Below, one piece after another: positions 6,624 through 24,993 of a stretch of DNA of 64,000 nt (positions are counted from its first letter, which is position 1; the number at the start of each line of letters is the position of its first letter). The stretch is from the NCBI RefSeq assembly GCF_013426895.1, contig NZ_AP023175.1, positions 682,001-746,000 of the forward strand. The letters are read 5' to 3'. The notes beneath the pieces are model-generated. The model made no database searches and was not told the DNA's origin. It saw only the letters and a program-made list of their open reading frames with translations. The position numbers and the translations under genes were made by a program. This DNA is from Paraburkholderia largidicola (GTDB lineage Bacteria; Pseudomonadota; Gammaproteobacteria; Burkholderiales; Burkholderiaceae).

Positions 6624-7073
6624 GTTCGAGACTCCACGTGAGTGATGAAGCGGTGCTGAGTCGATCAGAATACTCAATGCGCGGCGATGTTGCTGGTGCG
6701 TTGCCATGGCTTTTACAACCGTCCGTGCAATCCGCGCATGGATACTTGCCGGGCCTTTCGATAACCCTTTCATGACAATTTCATTCAGCACACGAGCGCA
6801 TTTCTTCCGTCATGCCGCGCGTCGGCTCATGTAGGATCGGCGTCATGTTCTATAGACCGATGAGATGAGCGCGCATCTATGCATCATCACCGGCACTGCA
6901 GGCGTGTTCGGAGAGTGGGTGACCGGTAGTTGCGTTATAGCGTGCCCGATCGAACACCCGATCGCAACCTCGGCACGCCCCCACGAAACCTGCGAGACTG
7001 AACGGGTCTAACGGTTTTACGGGCGTGCCACACCGCACTGGATATGCGGCGCCCCGCCCCCATCTTCGACCTC
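6624..7073. other. Divergent intergenic region, aldo/keto reductase / lhr
   Basis: About 450 bp between divergent genes. It must hold promoters for both, but I could not define a convincing -35/-10 pair or operator, and I see no small gene with a credible ribosome site. Confidence 0.5.
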
Positions 7074-10000
7074 ATGACTTCCGTCTCTTCCGCCGCCTTC
7101 GGGCTGGCCGACCCGCTGGCCGATTTCCATCCGGCCGTGGCGGGCTGGTTCCAGAAAACCTTTGCCGCGCCCACGGACGCGCAGGCCGCCGCATGGCCAT
7201 TGATCCGCAATGGCCGGCACACGCTCGTCGCCGCGCCGACAGGTTCGGGCAAGACGCTGACCGCGTTTCTCGCCGCGCTCGACGAACTCGTGCGCGACGG
7301 GCTCGCGCACGGCGGCGCATTGCCGGACGAAACGCTGGTGGTTTACGTCTCGCCCCTCAAGGCGCTGTCGAACGATATCCGCGTCAATCTGCAGACGCCG
7401 CTCGAAGGCATTGCGAACGAACTCGCCGAACGCGGGTTGCCCGTCCCCGAGATTCGCACCGCCGTGCGCACCGGCGATACGACACAACAGGAACGCGCCG
7501 CGCTGAAAAAGCGCGCGCCGCATATTCTCGTCACGACGCCCGAATCGCTGTACGTGCTGCTCGGCTCGGCGTCGGGCCGCAAGATGCTCGCGACGGTCCG
7601 CACGGTGATCGTCGATGAAATCCACGCGATGGCGGGCGGCAAGCGCGGCAGCCATCTCGCGCTGTCGCTCGAACGGCTCGATGCGCTGTGCGGCCGGCGC
7701 CTGCCACGCATCGGCCTGTCGGCGACGCAAAAGCAGATCGAAGCCGTCGCGCGGTTTCTGGTCGGCGGCGCGCGTGTCGACAGCGACGAACCCGCCGACT
7801 GCGCGATCGTCGATGTCGGCCATGTGCGTGCGCGAGATCTCGCGCTGGAAATTCCGCCCGTACCGCTCGAAGCGGTGATGTCGAACGAAGCGTGGGAGCT
7901 CGTCTACAACCGACTCGCCGAACTGGTCGCGCTACACCGCACCACGCTCGTGTTCGTCAACACGCGGCGCATGGCCGAGCGCGTCGCGCGGCATCTGACC
8001 GAGCGCCTCGGCAAGGACGCCGTCGCTGCGCATCACGGCAGCCTCGCGAAGGAACATCGCCTCGACGCGGAGCAGCGTTTGAAGCGCGGCGAGCTGCGCG
8101 TGCTGATCGCGACGGCATCGCTGGAACTGGGCATCGATATCGGCGACGTCGATCTGGTCTGCCAGATGGGCTCGCCGCGCGCGATCGCGCCGTTTCTGCA
8201 ACGCGTCGGACGCTCGGGCCACCATGTGGGTGGCATGCCGAAGGGGCGGCTGTTCCCCGCTTCGCGCGACGATCTGATCGAATGCGCGGCGCTGCTCGAT
8301 TGCGTGCGGCGTGGCGAGCTTGATCTGCTGCACATTCCGCGCGCGCCGCTCGACGTGCTTGCGCAGCAGATCGTCGCCGAAGTCTGCAACGCCGAATGGA
8401 GCGAGGACGCGCTGTTCGAACGCTTCCGTCACGCCGCGCCGTATGCCGCGCTCGAACGCGAGCAGTTCGACGCCGTGCTGCGCATGCTCGCCGAGGGCTA
8501 CACGAGCCGTCACGGCCCGCGCGCCGCGTATGTGCATCGCGACGCCGTCAACGGCACGTTGCGCGGACGGCGCGGCGCGCAGCTCTATGCGGTGACATCG
8601 GGCGGCACGATTCCGGAAAACGCCGATTACACGGTGGTGCTCGAACCGCAAGGGCTCAATATCGGCACGGTCAATGAAGACTTCGCCGTCGAAAGCCTTG
8701 CAGGCGATGTGTTCCAGCTTGGCAACGCGTCGTACCGGATCATGCGTGTCGAAAGCGGCCGCGTGCGGGTCGAAGATGCGCAAGGCCAGCCGCCGAACAT
8801 TCCGTTCTGGCTCGGCGAGGCGCCGGGGCGCAGCGATGAACTATCGGCGGGCGTCGCGCGGCTGCGCGCGGAGATCGAGCGGCGGCTCGCCGTCGCGAAG
8901 ACCGCTTCACCGATTGCTTCGGATACCGATGCATTTTCCGATTCACACGACGGCGTTGCGACCGTCGCCGAGCAGGCGGCCACGGTCACGCTCGATCTCG
9001 AACCCGCTATTGCGTGGCTGGTTGAGCAGACTCAGCTACCCGAGGCAGCCGCGCGGCAAATCGTCGAATATCTGGCGCGCGCCCGCCAGGCCCTCGGCGC
9101 GCTGCCGACGCAAGACACGCTCGTGATGGAGCGTTTTTTCGATGAATCGGGCGGCACACAGCTCGTGATTCATACGCCGTTCGGCAGCCGCGTCAATCGC
9201 GCGTGGGGCCTTGCGCTGCGCAAGCGCTTTTGCCGCACGTTCAATTTCGAGTTGCAGGCGGCCGCGACGGAAGACGCGATCGTGCTGTCGCTGACGGGCG
9301 CGCACAGCTTCGCGCTCGATGAAGTGTGGCGCTATCTGCGTTCGGCGACAGCCGAACACGTGTTGGTCCAGGCGCTGCTCGACGCACCGCTGTTCGGCGT
9401 GCGCTGGCGCTGGAACGCGACGACGGCGCTCGCGTTGCCGCGCTACACGGGTGGCCGCAAGACACCGCCGCCGTTGCAACGCATGCGCAGCGACGATCTG
9501 CTCGCAACCGTATTCCCCGATCAGGCCGCATGCCTCGAAAACATCGCGGGCGAGCGCGAATTGCCGAGTCATCCCCTCGTCGATCAGACGCTCGACGACT
9601 GCCTGCACGAGGCGATGGACACGGATGGCTGGCTTGCGCTGCTGCGCCGGATCGAAAGCGGGCAAATCGCGCTGGTGAGCCGCGATCTGCCTGCGCCGTC
9701 GCCGCTCGCCGCGGAAATCCTCACGGCCAAGCCGTACGCGTTTCTCGACGACGCGCCAATCGAAGAGCGCCGCACGCAGGCCGTGTTGAATCGACGCTAC
9801 ACGAGCGGCCCCGACTCCGCCGACGATCTCGGCGCACTCGATGCCGACGCGATTGCAAGCGTCGGCGAAGAAGCGTGGCCGCAAGCGCGCAACACCGACG
9901 AGATGCACGAAGCGCTGATGGGCCTTGCGTGCATCACGGAAGCCGAGGCGCAGCGCAACGAAAACTGGCCCGCGTGGCTCGCAGAACTCGCGAAAACGGG

Positions 10001-11519
10001 CCACGCTGCGCGGATGCAGATCGCGCAACACGACGCGCTGTGGCTGCCCGCCGAACGTCTGACGTGCCTGCGGGCGATTTATCCGCAGGCGCAAATCAAG
10101 CCGACGATCCGCGCGCCTAAGGGTTTCGACGAACCCTGGACAGAAGACGACGCGCTCGTCGACGTGGTGCGTGCCCGGCTGACGGGATTCGGGCCGCTGC
10201 CGCTTGCGTCGATCGCACGCGCGCTGGCGCTGCCTGCTTCGACGGTTGCACTGGCGCTCACGCGGCTCGAAGCGGAAGGCTATGTGATGCGCGGCCGCTT
10301 CACACCGGGCACCACGGATGAAGAGTGGTGCGAGCGGCATCTGCTCGCGCGCATCCATCGTTATACGGTGCGGCGCTTGCGGCGCGAGATCGAGCCTGTC
10401 GAGCGGCACGACTTCATGCGCTTCCTGTTCGCGTGGCAGCGCCTCACACCCGATACGCGCGGCGAAGGACGGGATGCGCTCGCCGCCGTGCTCGATCAGC
10501 TCGAAGGTTTTCAGGCGGCTGCGAGCGCATGGGAAGAAGACATTTTGCCTGCGCGGCTGAAGGACTATTCGATCACCTCGCTCGACGAGCTGTGCCGTTC
10601 CGGCAAGATCGTCTGGACACGGCTCACGGATCGCGCGCGCGGCGCAAGCGGGCCGGTGCGCAGCACGCCCATCGTGCTGTTGCCGCGCCGTGCGCTGCCC
10701 GTGTGGACCGCGCTGCTCGACACGTCGAAACAGCCGGAGTTGTCGCCGAAAGCGCAACTGGTGTTCGATACGTTGACGCAGCACGGCGCGATGTTCTTCG
10801 ACGAGTTATCGGGCGATGTTCATCTGCTGCGCGTCGAACTCGAAAACGCGCTCGGCGAACTGGTCGCGGCGGGCCTCGTCAATTCGGACAGCTTCGCGGG
10901 TTTGCGTGCGCTGCTGAAACCCGTCGCGAAACGCAACGCGTCGTATTTTCCGAGCCGCCGTCCGCGCGGCGCGGGCGCGCTGATCGGCGGCATGGACGAT
11001 GCGGGGCGATGGGCGCTGTTGCGGCGGCCGGTTGCCGCTGTGGCCGAAGAACCTGCGCCCTCTTCTTCCCGGCGTTCTTCGACTTCGTTCGCGCCCGACG
11101 TGATCGAGCATGTTGCGATGGCGTTGTTGCGGCGCTTTGGCGTCGTGTTCTGGCGGTTGCTCGAGCGGGAAGCCGAATGGCTGCCGCCGTGGCGCGATCT
11201 GCTGCGTGTGTATCAGCGGCTGGAAGCACGCGGTCAGGTGCGGGGCGGACGCTTCGTCAATGGTCTGGCGGGGGAGCAGTTTGCGTTGCCAGAGGCGATT
11301 CCGCTGTTGCGGGAGGTGCGTCGCCATGCGGATGATGGTGCTTTTGTGTGTGTCGCGGGTACGGACCCGTTGAATCTGGTCGGCACGTTGCTGCCGGGGA
11401 CAAGGTGCCTGCTGTTGCAGGGAACCGCGTGCTGTATCGGGATGGTGTGCCCGTTGCGTCGCTCGTTGCCGGCGAGTTTAATCTGCCCGATGATGTCGAT
11501 GGCGAGATCAAGCAGGTGA
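7074..11519 (+). CDS. lhr: Lhr-type large ATP-dependent DNA helicase (3' end frameshifted)
   Basis: Very long superfamily-2 helicase of the Lhr group, which acts in DNA repair. Visible helicase motifs are APTGSGKT (Walker A, near residue 53), VDEIH (Walker B/DEAH-like), GLSATQ (motif III) and RVGRSGH (motif VI, near residue 377). Winged-helix and Lhr-specific C-terminal regions follow. The ATG at 7074 gives about 1480 residues; an in-frame ATG at 7044 is an alternative, and neither has a good ribosome site. The frame runs to a stop at 11519, but after about 11397 the encoded residues become Cys/Met/Ser-rich and unlike the family, while the expected tail continues in another frame to 11548. 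This suggests a one-base loss in a GGGG run. A metallophosphoesterase partner gene often seen next to bacterial lhr is absent. Confidence 0.9.
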
Positions 11520-11548
11520 TGAGAATGCGGCTCGCGCGGCGGTATTGA
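11398..11548 (+). other. Out-of-frame native tail of the Lhr helicase
   Basis: In the -1 frame relative to the upstream gene this stretch encodes [16 protein letters not shown] followed by [15 protein letters not shown] and ends at a stop at 11548. This reads as the natural continuation of the family's C-terminal sequence after VGTLLPG. The join falls in a run of four G at about 11397-11400. It may be a true mutation, a homopolymer sequencing error or a -1 slip by the ribosome. Confidence 0.8.
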
Positions 11549-11632
11549 ATGGGGTTTGGGTTTGCTTTCGCTCGCATCCGCGGTTTGCGTTTTCGCTGGC
11601 ATCCGCATTTTGTTATGCTTGCCTCAAGCGTT

Positions 11633-11710
11633 GCCCCTGTGCGGGGCGGCACCTACTTTTCTTTGCCGCCGCAAAGAAAAGTAGGCAAAAGAAAGCGGCT
11701 CACACCGCCA
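11633..11710 (+). repeat. 78-bp arm, copy A left, with 34-bp hairpin
   Basis: One of four near-identical arms in the window. It carries a perfect 15-bp stem with a 4-base loop (CGCC) at 11652-11685; the stem begins CCTACTTTTCTTTGC. The arm also holds GTGCGGGGCGGCAC-type G+C-rich sequence on its outer side. The hairpin lies about 100 bases past the lhr stop. Confidence 0.9.
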
Positions 11711-11858
11711 ATCCTTGTGTTTGCCTGAGGGCCCCCACAGGTTCTTATGCTTCACACGGCGACGCCCTGGTTTGCGCTCGTTGCCAACGTTCTCCCTGTA
11801 CGCCTCACCCCGTTCACGCGCCCGAACTACAGCACGCCGTGCCAGTTATTCCACAGCC

Positions 11859-11991
11859 GCCCAGGTGGCAAACTGTGTGTAGGTCGAAGTAGCTCACACG
11901 CCTCACTTCGGACAGATAGCGCACGCGTTCCACCCTGTAAGCGCGCCAGGCTTTACGACGCGACAACCTACACACAGTTTGCCACCTGGGC
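11859..11991. repeat. Inner long stem-loop of copy A
   Basis: Two perfect 26-bp inverted repeats (11859-11884 and 11966-11991; core GGTGGCAAACTGTGTGTAGG) enclose an 81-base conserved loop. The arms are identical in copy B, although nearby sequence has diverged. A single frame of 50 codons is open through both copies without insertion or deletion. Confidence 0.85.
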
Positions 11992-12136
11992 AGCACATAC
12001 CAATCGCTGTCGCTGGCCGTTGTACGGGTGCTTGACGCGGGTGAGGCATTCATTCAAAGCGTTGGCAACGAGCACCGACCAGGGCACTGCGGTGTGAAGC
12101 ACGGGGACGCGGGGGCCCGTGGATAAGAACACGTGC

Positions 12137-12214
12137 TGGCGGTGTGAGCCGCTTTCTTTTGCCTACTTTTCTTTGCGGCGGCAAAGAAAAGTAGGTGCCG
12201 CCCCGCACAGGGGC
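12137..12214 (-). repeat. 78-bp arm, copy A right, with 34-bp hairpin
   Basis: Inverted partner of the arm at 11633-11710. Its hairpin is at 12162-12195 with loop GGCG. It lies about 150 bases past the trehalase stop on the opposite strand, so it could end transcription from that side. Confidence 0.9.
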
Positions 12215-12360
12215 AACGCTAGCGGACCAATAAAATCACGCGGACGCCAGCGCAAAGGCCAAAACACCAAACCGCGACGCCTGAAGCACGAAGGCAAACC
12301 GCGGATGCCGGCGCAAAAGCCCCGAACACCAAACCACGCCCACCCGCATCGACTACGCTA

Positions 12361-14070
12361 TCACTCGCCTGGGGCGTACAGATCGAGCAACTTCAACGTC
12401 ACGCCATTAGTCCACCCAAAGCCATCCTGCAACGGATACTCACCGCCACCACCGCCTCCAGTCCCCGATCCTTCAACCACATATTTCTCCACCAACTTCT
12501 GCTCCTTCGAGTAAACATTCTTAACATCCGCAAGAAACCGCGTACCAATCTGCTGCGCAAGATCACTGCGCCCATAACGCCGCAACCCTTCAATCGCGAG
12601 CCAATGCAACGGCGCCCAGCCATTCGGCGCATCCCACTGCTGGGTCGTGTCGTAAGTCGACGTGGTGAGACCGCCCGGCTTGAGCAACACACCCGCAACC
12701 ACATTCGCCGTCTTGTGCGCGCGATCAGGCCACGCAGCACCCGCGAACAACGGATACAGCATCGCGGGCGTCTGGTTGTCGCGCGACTTCGCGAGCTTCC
12801 AGTCGTAATCGCCGTAGTATCCCTTGCTATTCCACAGATACCGGTTGATGCCCTCGGCACGTTTCGCCGCCTTACCGATGAACTGCACGACGCAACTAAA
12901 ATCCCGCGTCTCCGAACAACCGCGCGCAATGGTCGTCTCGAGATGGAACATCAGGCTGTTCAGATCGACAGGGATGATCGAAGTAGTGCGAACGGTCGTT
13001 AGATTCATGTTGTCGCCGAACCAGCGCGAACTGAAATCCCAGCCGCTTTCCGCCGTCGCGCGCAGATCGCGGTACACCTCGTTAGGCGCCCGCCCGGTGG
13101 CTTTCTGCGCCGTCTGCACGTCTTCGAGATACGACTCGTCGCGCGGCGTGTCGAGTTCGTCCCAATAACGGTTCAGCACCGTTTTGTCCGGTAGCACCAC
13201 GACGTTGCGCGTTGCGTCGCCAGGCTTCGTCGTCGACGCGCCCTGCATCCAGTACGCGTATTCCTTGCGCATGGCCGGCAAATACTTCTGATAGACGCGC
13301 CCCCCTTCGACCTTTGCGGCAAGCTCCACCATGTACGAGAAGAACGGCGGCTGCGAGCGGCTCAGATAGTAGGTCCGGTTGCCGTTCGGAATGTGGCCAT
13401 ACGTGTCGATCATGTACGCGAAGTTGTCGAGCATGTTGTCGACGAGATCTTCATGTCCCGACTCCTGCAAGCCGAGCATCGTGAAATACGTGTCCCAGTA
13501 ATAGCCTTCGCGAAAGCGCCCGCCGGGCACGACGTACGGCTTGGGCATCGGAATCAGCGAACTGTACGGCGGCGCGGTCGTCGTCGTGCGCGTGAGTTCG
13601 GGCCACAGCCAGTTGATGTGATCGCGCAGCGACTGGTTCGGCGGCGGCGTGATCACGGGCTCCGAAGGCGGTATGAAGTACTGGTCGACGAAAGTTTTCA
13701 GCGAGAAATTCGGCTGGTTCTTCTGCGTTTCGTAGGCCTGGAGGATCGTTGCGGGGTCCGCTTTCGGCAACGCGTCGACGAAGGTCTTCTGGTCGGGATA
13801 GATCTGCCGGGTCTGCACAGCGACGAACAGGTCGCCATACAACTTGTCGGGCGGCGGCGGCAACGTGCCGCCCAACTGCGTATCGGCGCTCGCCACGCGC
13901 GCGAAACCTGCCAGCAGCACAAAGCTTGAAAACGCGACTGCACGCGCGGCGGATCGCTTGCGCAGAGGCGGCGAGCTTGATGGCGCCGCGCATTGCATCG
14001 GGTCAAAAAGAACTGCGGTTGATGGATGTGTACTGACAGTCCTGCTACGAACAGACGACAGCGTACTCAT
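12361..14070 (-). CDS. treA: Periplasmic alpha,alpha-trehalase
   Basis: Glycoside hydrolase family 37 enzyme that splits trehalose to two glucose molecules in the periplasm. Both family signatures are present: [15 protein letters not shown] and [10 protein letters not shown], plus the glycine-rich loop before [14 protein letters not shown] near the C-terminus. The 569-residue reading begins at the ATG at 14070, preceded by a strong ribosome site (GAGGAGGGAG). A long basic N-terminus leads into a hydrophobic segment ending in ARVASA, consistent with an export signal. The gene is monocistronic and ends in the composite repeat. Confidence 0.95.
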
Positions 14071-23084: not shown

Positions 23085-23267
23085 TGCCGCTTCTGTATCT
23101 GGCGTGCGCCGGCAGCACGCGAAACAATCGACCGGTTCGCGCGACTGGCGCTCAATCGAGGTGGATCACCACCGGGGAACGCGAACCGGGATGCACATCC
23201 CGTCATGCCGCGCGCCTGGGCCTTGCCACGATCCTTCGATCGGTCTTCCTTCAACGGAGTTCACGCA

Positions 23268-23900
23268 ATGCCTCAAACCTCGCATCTCGTTGCATTTGCT
23301 TTCGTCGCGCTCGGCATGGCGCTCACGCCCGGGCCCAACATGATCTATCTGATCTCGCGGTCGATCTGCCAGGGCCGTGTGGCAGGCCTGATTTCGCTGG
23401 GCGGGGTGGCGCTTGGTTTCGTGGTCTATATGTTCTGCGCTGCGTTCGGTATTACGGCGTTGCTGCTTGCCGTGCCGTTTGCGTATGACACGCTGCGGTT
23501 TGGTGGCGCGCTCTATCTGCTGTATCTCGCATGGCAGGCTGTGAAGCCGGGTGGACGCTCGCCGTTCCAGGTGCGCGATTTGCCCGTCGATAGTCCGCGC
23601 AAGTTGTTCACGATGGGTTTCATCACCAATCTCTTGAATCCGAAGATTGCTGTGCTGTATCTGTCGCTGCTGCCGCAGTTTATTGATCCGCAGCACGGCA
23701 GCGTGCTTGGGCAATCGCTGGTATTTGGCGCGATTCAGATCGTGCTGAGTATTTCTGTTAATTCGACTGTTGCGGTGACGGCGGGGTCGATTGCCGCGTT
23801 TCTCGCGGGTAGGCCGACGTGGCTCGTCGTGCAGCGATGGATCATGGGGACTGTGTTGGCTGGGCTTGCAGTCAGGATGGCGGTGGAAGGGCGGCGGTAA
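23268..23900 (+). CDS. LysE/RhtB family amino-acid exporter
   Basis: Six-helix inner-membrane exporter of 210 residues. The family signature is clear near the N-terminus (GMALTPGPNMIYLISRS) and the central FTMGFITNLLNPKIAVLYLS motif is intact. ACGGAG lies about eight bases before the ATG at 23268. Substrate unknown (homoserine, threonine or other amino acids). The gene ends at the second composite repeat. Confidence 0.92.
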   Translation: MPQTSHLVAFAFVALGMALTPGPNMIYLISRSICQGRVAGLISLGGVALGFVVYMFCAAFGITALLLAVPFAYDTLRFGGALYLLYLAWQAVKPGGRSPFQVRDLPVDSPRKLFTMGFITNLLNPKIAVLYLSLLPQFIDPQHGSVLGQSLVFGAIQIVLSISVNSTVAVTAGSIAAFLAGRPTWLVVQRWIMGTVLAGLAVRMAVEGRR

Positions 23901-24052
23901 GCCTTGTCATTTTGTCTGCGACGGCTTGGTTTGGTTTTTCGCTTTTCGCTTTTCGCTTGCATCCGGGTTATGACTTTGTGCTTCAGGCGGTGCCGGTCGG
24001 TGTTTTCGCCTTTGCGCTGGCATCCGCGGTTTGCTTCTGGTTCGCAAGCGTC

Positions 24053-24130
24053 GCCCCTGTGCGGGGCGGCACCTACTTTTCTTTGCCGCCGCAAAGAAAA
24101 GTAGGCAAAAGAAAGCGGCTAACACCGCCA
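24053..24130 (+). repeat. 78-bp arm, copy B left
   Basis: Matches the left arm of copy A at all but one or two positions. Hairpin at 24072-24105, 15-bp stem, loop CGCC. It lies about 150 bases past the LysE-family stop codon. Confidence 0.9.
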
Positions 24131-24276
24131 GCACGTGTTCTTATCCACGGGCCCCCAACGTCCCCACGCTCCACGCGGCAGCCTTGCTGTTCGCGTGCGT
24201 TGCCAACGCTTTGTATAGAAGCCTCCCCTGCTTCAGGCACCCATACACGGGCGAACGCCAGCGAATGGTATGTGCC

Positions 24277-24409
24277 GCCCAGGTGGCAAACTGTGTGTAG
24301 GTTGTCGCGACGCACAGGATAGCGCTCTTACAAGGTGGGGCGCGTGCGCTATCGGTCCGAAGCGAGGCGTGTGAGGTACTACGGCCTACACACAGTTTGC
24401 CACCTGGGC
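24277..24409. repeat. Inner long stem-loop of copy B
   Basis: Inverted repeats at 24277-24302 and 24385-24409 around an ~82-base loop; arms identical in sequence to those of copy A. The loop retains the blocks GTGCGCTATC and GGCGTGTGAG seen (as complement) in copy A. Confidence 0.85.
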
Positions 24410-24557
24410 GGCCGCGGACGATCTGGCGCGGCATGCGGAAATGCGGGCGCGCGAAGCGGGTGAGGCATACAGAGAGAACGTTGGCAACGAGCGCGGACTG
24501 GTGCGTTGCCGTGTGAAGCGTAAGACCCTTTGAGGGCCCTCAGGCAGCAACAAAAAT

Positions 24558-24635
24558 TGGCGGTGTGAGCCGCTTTCTTTTGCCTACTTTTCTTTGCGGC
24601 GGCAAAGAAAAGTAGGTGCCGCCCCGCACAGGGGC
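24558..24635 (-). repeat. 78-bp arm, copy B right
   Basis: Inverted partner of the left arm, hairpin at 24583-24616 with loop GGCG. It lies about 90 bases past the stop of the minus-strand DUF2158 gene. Confidence 0.9.
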
Positions 24636-24720
24636 AACGCTAGCAAACCAGAAGCAAACCGCGGATGCCGGCGAACAAACAAGCAAACCACCCCCAAACC
24701 GCCCGCGCAAAGCGCCCCCC

Positions 24721-24993
24721 TCAGGGTGAAACACTCCGAACAAACCTGTGCACTGATCCCGCCGGAATCGAGCGCGGCTGCCGCCACACTTCATCCTGCG
24801 CGAAGGTTTCCTGACGCAATTCGCCATGGTCGTCGAACCATTGGCATACGAGCCATTCACCCGTCTTACGGGCAATCGCCCCAACATAAGTCACCGTCAT
24901 CCGCGGGCCGCCCGTTTTGAGCGTCACCACGTCCCCGACAATGATTTGCACCGTTTGCGTCGTATCAAATGCGTCGAAAGTAGCAGTCAGCAT
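24721..24993 (-). CDS. DUF2158 (YodC-like) small protein
   Basis: A 90-residue protein with the family core VGDVVTLKTGGPRMTV and CQWFDDHGELRQETF. Function is unknown in this family. The ATG at 24993 has a GGGGAC ribosome site at good spacing; an in-frame ATG at 25014 lacks one. It stands alone, with a long A+T-rich region upstream and the composite repeat downstream. Confidence 0.8.
   Translation of the reverse strand: MLTATFDAFDTTQTVQIIVGDVVTLKTGGPRMTVTYVGAIARKTGEWLVCQWFDDHGELRQETFAQDEVWRQPRSIPAGSVHRFVRSVSP

Follow-up and report, generated by a model that had tools for sequence, protein, structure and literature searches.

The elements described here are long interspersed palindromes, which probably act as chronic hotspots of DNA breakage and gene conversion, with both the break and the nuclease being what we infer. 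In the 9.47 Mb genome of the host, Paraburkholderia largidicola, about 170 of them (estimated from some 340 arm hairpins) make up approximately 1.3% of the sequence, and the genes beside most of them carry a graded, strand-specific loss of C which is found on both sides of the element. As a more tentative extension, they could constitute a bacterial counterpart of meiotic hotspots: a palindromic repeat spread by recombination, with arms recognised by a putative nuclease, which would provide up to about 170 fixed break sites, homogenise itself by ectopic conversion, replace ordinary terminators and leave a heritable strand-specific gradient on many gene ends across a Paraburkholderia clade.

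The window, i.e. the whole stretch of DNA that was analysed (64,000 nt, C2:682001-746000), contains two copies, A (approximately 11566-12338) and B (approximately 23930-24700), of about 0.75 kb each. An earlier note, made from the letters of this window, had described them as composite palindromes with inverted arms and inner and outer repeats, and mapping of the inverted repeats in both copies bears this out. Reading of the two sequences indicates that they are one asymmetric element in opposite orientation, in which a T/G-rich outer end is followed by an arm of 115-144 nt, an interior, an inner inverted repeat and an asymmetric core, after which the order is reversed. The features are the following, in window coordinates:

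11566..12338: element A, whole composite palindrome, inverted and direct repeats, DNA fold z -20.1
11566-11591/12291-12316: outer inverted repeat of A, 26 nt, 85%
11622..11736 (+): left arm of A, 115 nt, 89% complementary to the right arm
11652..11685: left 34-bp arm hairpin of A, inverted repeats; 168 + 174 copies of the hairpin genome-wide with at most one mismatch
11748-11833/12016-12101: further inverted repeat of A, 86 nt, 74%
11856..11884 (+): left inner repeat of A, 29 nt, 97% with the right one
11885..11965: asymmetric core of A, the sequence between the inner repeats
11966..11994 (-): right inner repeat of A, 29 nt
12111..12225 (-): right arm of A, 115 nt
12162..12195: right 34-bp arm hairpin of A, inverted repeats
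23930..24700: element B, a copy of the element in inverted orientation, inverted repeats, DNA fold z -21.1
24015..24158 (+): left arm of B, 144 nt, 88% complementary to the right arm
24072..24105: left 34-bp arm hairpin of B, inverted repeats
24274..24316 (+): left inner repeat of B, 43 nt, 84% with the right one
24370..24412 (-): right inner repeat of B, 43 nt
24530..24673 (-): right arm of B, 144 nt
24583..24616: right 34-bp arm hairpin of B, inverted repeats

The repeat is not a product of chance, since the window has 8 occurrences of CCTACTTTTCTTTG when one mismatch is allowed (0.01 expected), and since both copies fold as single-stranded DNA far beyond their shuffled counterparts (A z = -20.1, B z = -21.1, 20 shuffles each). 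Each arm contains a 34-bp hairpin, CCTACTTTTCTTTGC-N4-GCAAAGAAAAGTAGG, and a consensus built from 65 copies forms a single rod when folded with RNA energies; the element is thereby a long near-palindromic inverted repeat, as would be expected of a fragile palindrome. The arms also carry three mirror-matched tracts on one strand, TTTTCTTT / AAAGAAAA / AAAAGAAA, which fit the intrastrand triplex motif, and are possibly triplex-prone. The tracts are jointly shortened to TTTCTTT / AAAGAAA / AAAGAAA in Caballeronia, and also in a relative (G042), in its second arm type. The two arm types of G042 (seen e.g. in L117 and L127), with TTTTCTTT and TTTCTTT, differ together in the loop and the third tract, and two copies (L120 and L122) carry the outer end module twice in tandem, joined within the hairpin sequence. 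An RNA gene, or a structure at the RNA level, was considered and rejected, as pairing within copies is not above permutation in the arms, the interior or the inner repeat. It is below it in the interior (z -3.4) and slightly above in the outer part, at a level reached by 4/200 permutations. The palindromic partners of the interior match more poorly within one copy than between copies, and the RNA-structure test on the copies gave no consistent excess of G-T over A-C at paired positions.

Both elements of the window lie in convergent gaps, as the earlier note had it. A is flanked by genes coding for an Lhr-type helicase (7044-11519, +) and a trehalase (12361-14070, -), and B by genes coding for a LysE-type exporter (23268-23900, +) and a DUF2158 protein (24721-24993, -). 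The 820 bp previously given for the gap of B stands, but the gap of A measures 841 bp by the present gene call instead of 812 bp, a value which fits a stop codon at 11546-11548 in another frame. The frame of the Lhr-type gene stops at 11519 while that other frame runs to 11546-11548, and a late frameshift is possible. The window also has a match to the ZMP/ZTP riboswitch at 23131-23228 (+, 59.8 bits).

Searching the host genome with the arm hairpin and tabulating the flanking genes revealed a high-copy composite palindrome with a strong preference for gene 3' ends. The hairpin is found 168 and 174 times on the two strands with at most one mismatch, and a generic hairpin pattern has 340 exact matches. 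The placement sample consists of 61 stretches (1.2 Mb), namely the window, 55 stretches chosen around copies and 5 C2 stretches not so chosen, with genes called by a script which missed the DUF2158 gene beside B. It contains 77 elements. In 65 of them the arms are separated by 506-514 nt, 5 carry a large insert between the arms, and in the other 7 a single hairpin was recognised. The tail-to-tail placement proposed from A and B holds in that convergent gaps are the commonest, but they account for 53% of the 77 elements and not for all (41 convergent, 33 co-directional, 3 divergent). Gaps of 60 bp or more that lack an element, taken from these stretches, are distributed differently (70 convergent, 315 co-directional, 128 divergent; chi-square p ~1e-16), and none of the 77 elements lies within a called gene, IS genes inside elements aside. 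Among the 99 gene ends that face an intact element, 39 have the hairpin 100-119 nt from the stop codon, which is the peak of the distribution. A run of at least 4 T within 14 nt of the stop is present at 70/94 gene ends no more than 180 nt from a hairpin, compared to 18/835 other genes, and TAG stops are commoner beside elements (20/94 vs 117/932), as C>T changes in CAG would give.

The composition of the flanking genes changes in a graded manner, hereafter called the cone. On the strand whose 5' to 3' direction leads to the element (the toward-strand), third positions have less C and more T and G the nearer they lie to it. Fourfold T/(T+C) climbs from 0.128 to 0.685 where genes read toward the element, with a decay length of 408 nt. 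For genes that read away, the corresponding rise is from 0.086 to 0.667 (71 sites in the first bin), with a decay length of 383 nt. The cone therefore lies on both sides of the element, which is the strand-specific rise in flank mutation that characterises fragile palindromes. In convergent gene ends that lack an element the ratio stays at 0.21-0.26 throughout (125 genes), whereas in those with one it starts at 0.73 and falls to about 0.22 (63 genes). The 95th percentile of the null, 0.32, is exceeded by 109 of 134 flanks and not by the other 25, and the cones are weak at some shared sites. Three gene ends in the window illustrate the effect (last 120 codons in each case):

11157..11516 (+): cone in the end of the Lhr-type helicase gene, third-position T/(T+C) 0.49 vs 0.22 in the rest
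12364..12723 (-): cone in the end of the trehalase gene, third-position T/(T+C) 0.62 vs 0.30 in the rest
23538..23897 (+): cone in the end of the LysE-type gene, third-position T/(T+C) 0.58 vs 0.44 in the rest

The interior of the element is not depleted in C on the entering strand (C/(C+G) of 0.571 in the first half), and a hotspot model therefore has to invoke conversion, or else breakage at the palindrome base. A strongly context-specific deaminase was rejected, as the C-to-T shift has log-odds of 1.5-2.4 in all neighbour contexts. The cone was also rejected as a general property of REP arrays: in a small sample of 14 E. coli sites (200 kb) the profile shows a slight rise (0.49) within the first 100 nt and no gradient farther out. 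Cones are present at sites of P. caribensis and PGU19 (three sites, one of them with a single hairpin) and in other species represented by one to six two-arm sites each, being weak in P. diazotrophica and at the Caballeronia site.

Transcription modifies the cone, since in co-directional gaps it is stronger where the gene reads into the element (0.56 vs 0.36, 18/19 pairs). This observation, together with the location of elements at gene 3' ends, is what speaks for a transcription-coupled origin, in which RNA polymerase would stall in the element and form R-loops, and the exposed coding strand would be damaged and lose C. We consider this unlikely, as the genes reading away keep the sign of the toward-strand although their coding strand is the other one (with a 95% interval of 0.227-0.349 still at 200-300 nt), and as G/(G+A) on the toward-strand is not lowered.

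The same genes can be compared in genomes with and without the element. T/(T+C) is 0.62-0.92 for lgt and 0.36-0.67 for smpB in the 8 genomes with an element (host included), vs 0.15-0.45 and 0.03-0.28, respectively, in the 23 without; this grouping was made partly by hand, with G019 (lgt) and G082 (smpB) reassigned to the genomes with an element, and G092, which at smpB has two short motif matches but no arm, to those without. Grouping by an automatic motif rule, without the host, gives means of 0.81 (n=6) with the element vs 0.26 (n=24) without for lgt, and 0.45 (n=7) vs 0.17 (n=23) for smpB. The arm hairpin was not found in the fetched stretches of G107 and G019 at lgt and of G082 at smpB; at both genes the cone is seen only where the element or a recognisable part of it is present. 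When polarised (over two genes in eight related genomes, so that one change may count several times), the changes in the nearer half of lgt are C>T 129/280, C>G 65/280 and A>G 16/32, and in that of smpB C>T 59/192, C>G 40/192 and A>G 23/24, all of them above the farther half.

A second comparison is offered by a sister species (G052), whose flanks are about 91% identical to those of the host (10 pairs). Out of the 17 elements in its stretches, 4 of which were fetched because of their differing look, 14 have an element at the orthologous host site, 2 face a remnant and 1 faces an empty site. At sites where the other genome has no trace of the element (L098/L091 and L052/L101), the measured flanks of the element are near baseline, the values being 0.30 (left) and 0.08 (right) at L098 of G052 and 0.15 (right) at L052 of the host. 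The remnant sites of the host keep the cone (0.65 at L092; 0.56 and 0.54 at L093), and both remnants end at one junction, the short repeat GCCCC at the arm base. In this two-species comparison without an outgroup, trace-free sites are read as recent gains and remnant sites as recent losses.

While the sites are largely shared, their content is not. In 11 orthologous pairs, the host ortholog ranks 30, 64, 12, 61, 30, 32, 36, 14, 25, 27 and 48 of 65 in similarity, i.e. at random; 5 of the pairs agree in orientation, 5 are flipped and 1 could not be decided. The outer ends are mostly not orthologous between the two species either, with the pair L105/L041 as the clearest exception. Among host copies, variable sites less than 40 nt apart are in linkage disequilibrium with an r2 of 0.10, which has dropped to 0.024 for sites 160-200 nt apart, and the nearest neighbours of the left and right interiors agree in 9/65 copies, with distances of the two interiors still correlated (Mantel r 0.52). 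The decay, the disagreement between neighbours and the random ranks together indicate that the copies are mosaics which exchange sequence. The arms are nearly invariant within a lineage (144/147 hairpins without mismatch in the host sample) and differ between lineages as a set.

The preferred reading, a chronic break and conversion hotspot, would account for these observations as follows. The palindrome, or its possibly triplex-prone arms, would occasionally be extruded and cut, and resection of the 5' ends would leave the toward-strand single-stranded for some hundreds of nucleotides; the loss of C on this strand on both sides corresponds to the 3' overhang expected after such a break. Error-prone fill-in would turn damaged bases on the exposed strand into permanent C>T, C>G and A>G changes. 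Repair would sometimes use another genomic copy, by which the interior would be exchanged and flipped and the arms kept uniform within a lineage; ectopic repair is thus the proposed source of the turnover, flips and mosaics. Over time, the old terminator between stop codon and element would be eroded, leaving the T/G-rich spacer that is observed immediately behind the stop codon. SbcCD was rejected as the nuclease, as SbcD, the canonical one, scores over the model cut-off in 2/26 genomes and below it in the host; this low score may be the reason why such palindromes are tolerated.

Two eukaryotic systems resemble parts of this scheme. Human meiotic breaks leave strand-asymmetric C>N and A>N changes on the resected strand, with C>G, C>T and A>G among them and C>T raised in CpG, alongside gene conversion (PMC7615360). 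The polarity and spectrum of the cone resemble this pattern, except that CpG is not singled out here. The human breaks are programmed at PRDM9 sites (PMC7615360), while here the break is a proposed one and the cutter putative. In yeast, inverted repeats raise mutation in reporters on both flanks, which depends on the opening of break ends and on resection (PMC3681665). Those are engineered eukaryotic reporters with effects reaching 8 kb (PMC3681665), whereas the present repeats are natural and bacterial, with a decay of approximately 0.4 kb recorded over evolutionary time and a presumed break.

The insertion preference or two-way transcription barrier suggested by the earlier note does not hold up as the main point, since it explains neither the strand-specific cones nor the turnover of content nor the orientation flips. 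As regards a terminator function, the element has abundant hairpins and T-rich stretches, but ordinary terminator hairpins are absent from the lgt and smpB sites carrying it. A terminator-like hairpin no more than 150 nt from the stop is present in 22/23 (lgt) and 15/23 (smpB) element-free genomes, and in 0/8 genomes with the element for either gene, from which it follows, for lgt, that the element stands where a terminator stood. In element-free convergent gaps of the host such a hairpin was found in 36/73, some of the 73 being within IS-split elements. At L098 of G052, where the element has no cone on its right side, the terminator is still beside it. At L052, the terminator of G052 is missing from the host although the cone is absent there, and terminator loss can therefore also come with insertion. 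The entering halves of the elements are C-rich, beyond the 95th percentile of random windows in 27/65 (first half) and 38/65 (second half), but this is suggestive only as regards Rho loading. The replaced hairpins, the 3'-end preference and the C-rich halves, which could load Rho, would all suit a two-way terminator maintained by selection, with the composition of gene ends selected for termination or RNA stability. Such selection gives no reason to expect synonymous change as far as about 1 kb into genes, cones in genes whose 5' end faces the element, or turnover at shared sites, and we find it quite improbable as the full explanation; termination may instead be a second role of the element.

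It had also been claimed that no transposase is linked and that neither a REP sequence nor an insertion sequence explains the layout. Both points are supported: the element could not be matched to any described REP or IS, and the transposases inside some copies are insertions into it. Four of the 5 copies (out of 77) with a large insert (L037, L056, L067 and L075) carry one and the same element, which we take to be of the IS30 type, at a recurring spot beside the arm hairpin, and the fifth carries another transposase. An autonomous version with its own gene between the arms was rejected on account of the nature of these inserts. Five of the 7 single-hairpin elements adjoin an IS481-type insertion, which splits the second hairpin in the three copies read (L031, L063 and L076), while L033 and L035 retain the far outer motif. 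These recurring insertions at hairpins make the palindrome a landing site for IS elements. At L084:7812-9948, a different transposase gene (425 codons) lies in the interior of one element. Linkage to a REP transposase was likewise rejected: there are two Y1_Tnp matches in the host genome, one over the cut-off, and neither 3.2-kb locus contains the element junction or an inner motif.

Patchy copy numbers in the genus (51/117 genomes with any hairpin), nearly invariant ends and presence or absence differing between close species would nonetheless suit a non-autonomous MITE- or REP-like element moved in trans, whose single-stranded transposition intermediates would cause the strand-specific damage. 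Against this stand the lack of a linked transposase, the absence of element motifs from the two Y1 loci, the retention of the element at shared sites while its content changes, and outer ends that vary between copies, where a MITE would have the fixed terminal inverted repeats of a known transposase. Moreover, no clear target-site duplication was found at the two sites comparable with a genome without the element (L098/L091 and L052/L101, i.e. one remnant-free site in each direction), and the junctions are not sharp. This origin is hence doubtful, and we give it little credence. Arrest of replication forks, with exposure of the lagging-strand template, is very improbable as the cause: palindromes are known to obstruct forks, but arrest predicts opposite polarity on the two sides of the element and in the two halves of the chromosome, which are marked off by a change in the sign of the GC skew at approximately 1.5-1.75 Mb, and both sides and both halves agree.

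Amongst bacterial repeats, REP/BIME sequences are likewise interspersed palindromes found in convergent and co-directional gaps and rarely in divergent ones, occur as pairs in opposite orientation and are targets of IS elements (PMC3733652). Their units are of 20-40 bp compared to about 750 bp here, and the tag GTAG or CGTC lies beside the REP palindrome (PMC3733652), whereas GTAG sits inside the paired stem here. The 34-bp hairpin occurs as part of the 0.75-kb palindrome, and in the host stretches that were fetched the inner motifs occur in elements only. REP differs further in having a Y1 transposase flanked by the repeat, and the present element in having cones, of which the 14 E. coli sites have none beyond 100 nt. 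Burkholderia is not mentioned in the covered portion of this survey (PMC3733652). The TM-ECO motif of E. coli is a conserved intergenic motif with three mirror-matched tracts, sometimes in inverted pairs, and has been linked with local instability and a very variable copy number (PMC4666352). It is a G/C-rich motif of 36-37 nt, in contrast to the A/T-rich motif in long palindromic arms described here, and the word Burkholderia is absent from the main text of that paper (PMC4666352).

The Rfam model RF02421 (Bp1_684 sRNA, PMC3521395) matches the outer end of the arm at 32-40 bits, below its gathering score of 44, and the matched part is one end of the longer element. RF02421 may thus describe a piece of this palindromic repeat; the words repeat and palindrom are absent from the main text of PMC3521395. 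Within the open-licence literature and a few subscription papers, no description was found of the repeat or of bacterial mutation cones around repeats, and no open-licence paper was found containing the letters of the arm and the inner repeat. Fragile palindromes are already known, while graded strand-specific scars left by a natural bacterial repeat family were not found in print. The system is natural and replicated: each genome offers about 170 sites, and several species are available, as are presence/absence pairs and controls within the same gene. It makes the mutational cost of a palindrome readable from sequence. If the reading is true, interspersed repeats can impose mutation rates on bacterial genes that are local and strand-specific, remodel the ends of genes and their codon usage, and exchange their content by conversion while their sites persist; analyses of codon usage or selection near such repeats would be biased, and one Rfam sRNA family would perhaps be a piece of a repeat.

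As for relatives, 51 of the 117 genomes in the genus sample (host included) have at least one hairpin, 9 have at least 40 per strand and 66 have none at that stringency, the symmetric loop variant being scored on both strands. In the order sample, the generic hairpin is found in 8/300 genomes (host included). A pattern scan of named genomes gave at least 120 matches, and among the matches listed, 80 in number, all are from Paraburkholderia or 'Burkholderia sp.'. Twenty plasmid records match (10 Paraburkholderia, 7 Burkholderia and 3 Caballeronia), with at least 39 or 40 places counted in six large Paraburkholderia replicons, and no hairpin matches were found in phage records. The one site read in Caballeronia NK8 shares the architecture but not the sequence. 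On a plasmid of B. cepacia ATCC 25416, an arm-like sequence lies between aceF and lpdA (L356:5001-5076), and Bp1_Cand684 has been reported from a place of this kind (PMC3521395). Two genomes of another family of the order (G170 and G412) contain a similar hairpin with another loop, mostly CTTTTCTTTG-CTTCGC-CAAAGAAAAG, 8 and 29 times, respectively.
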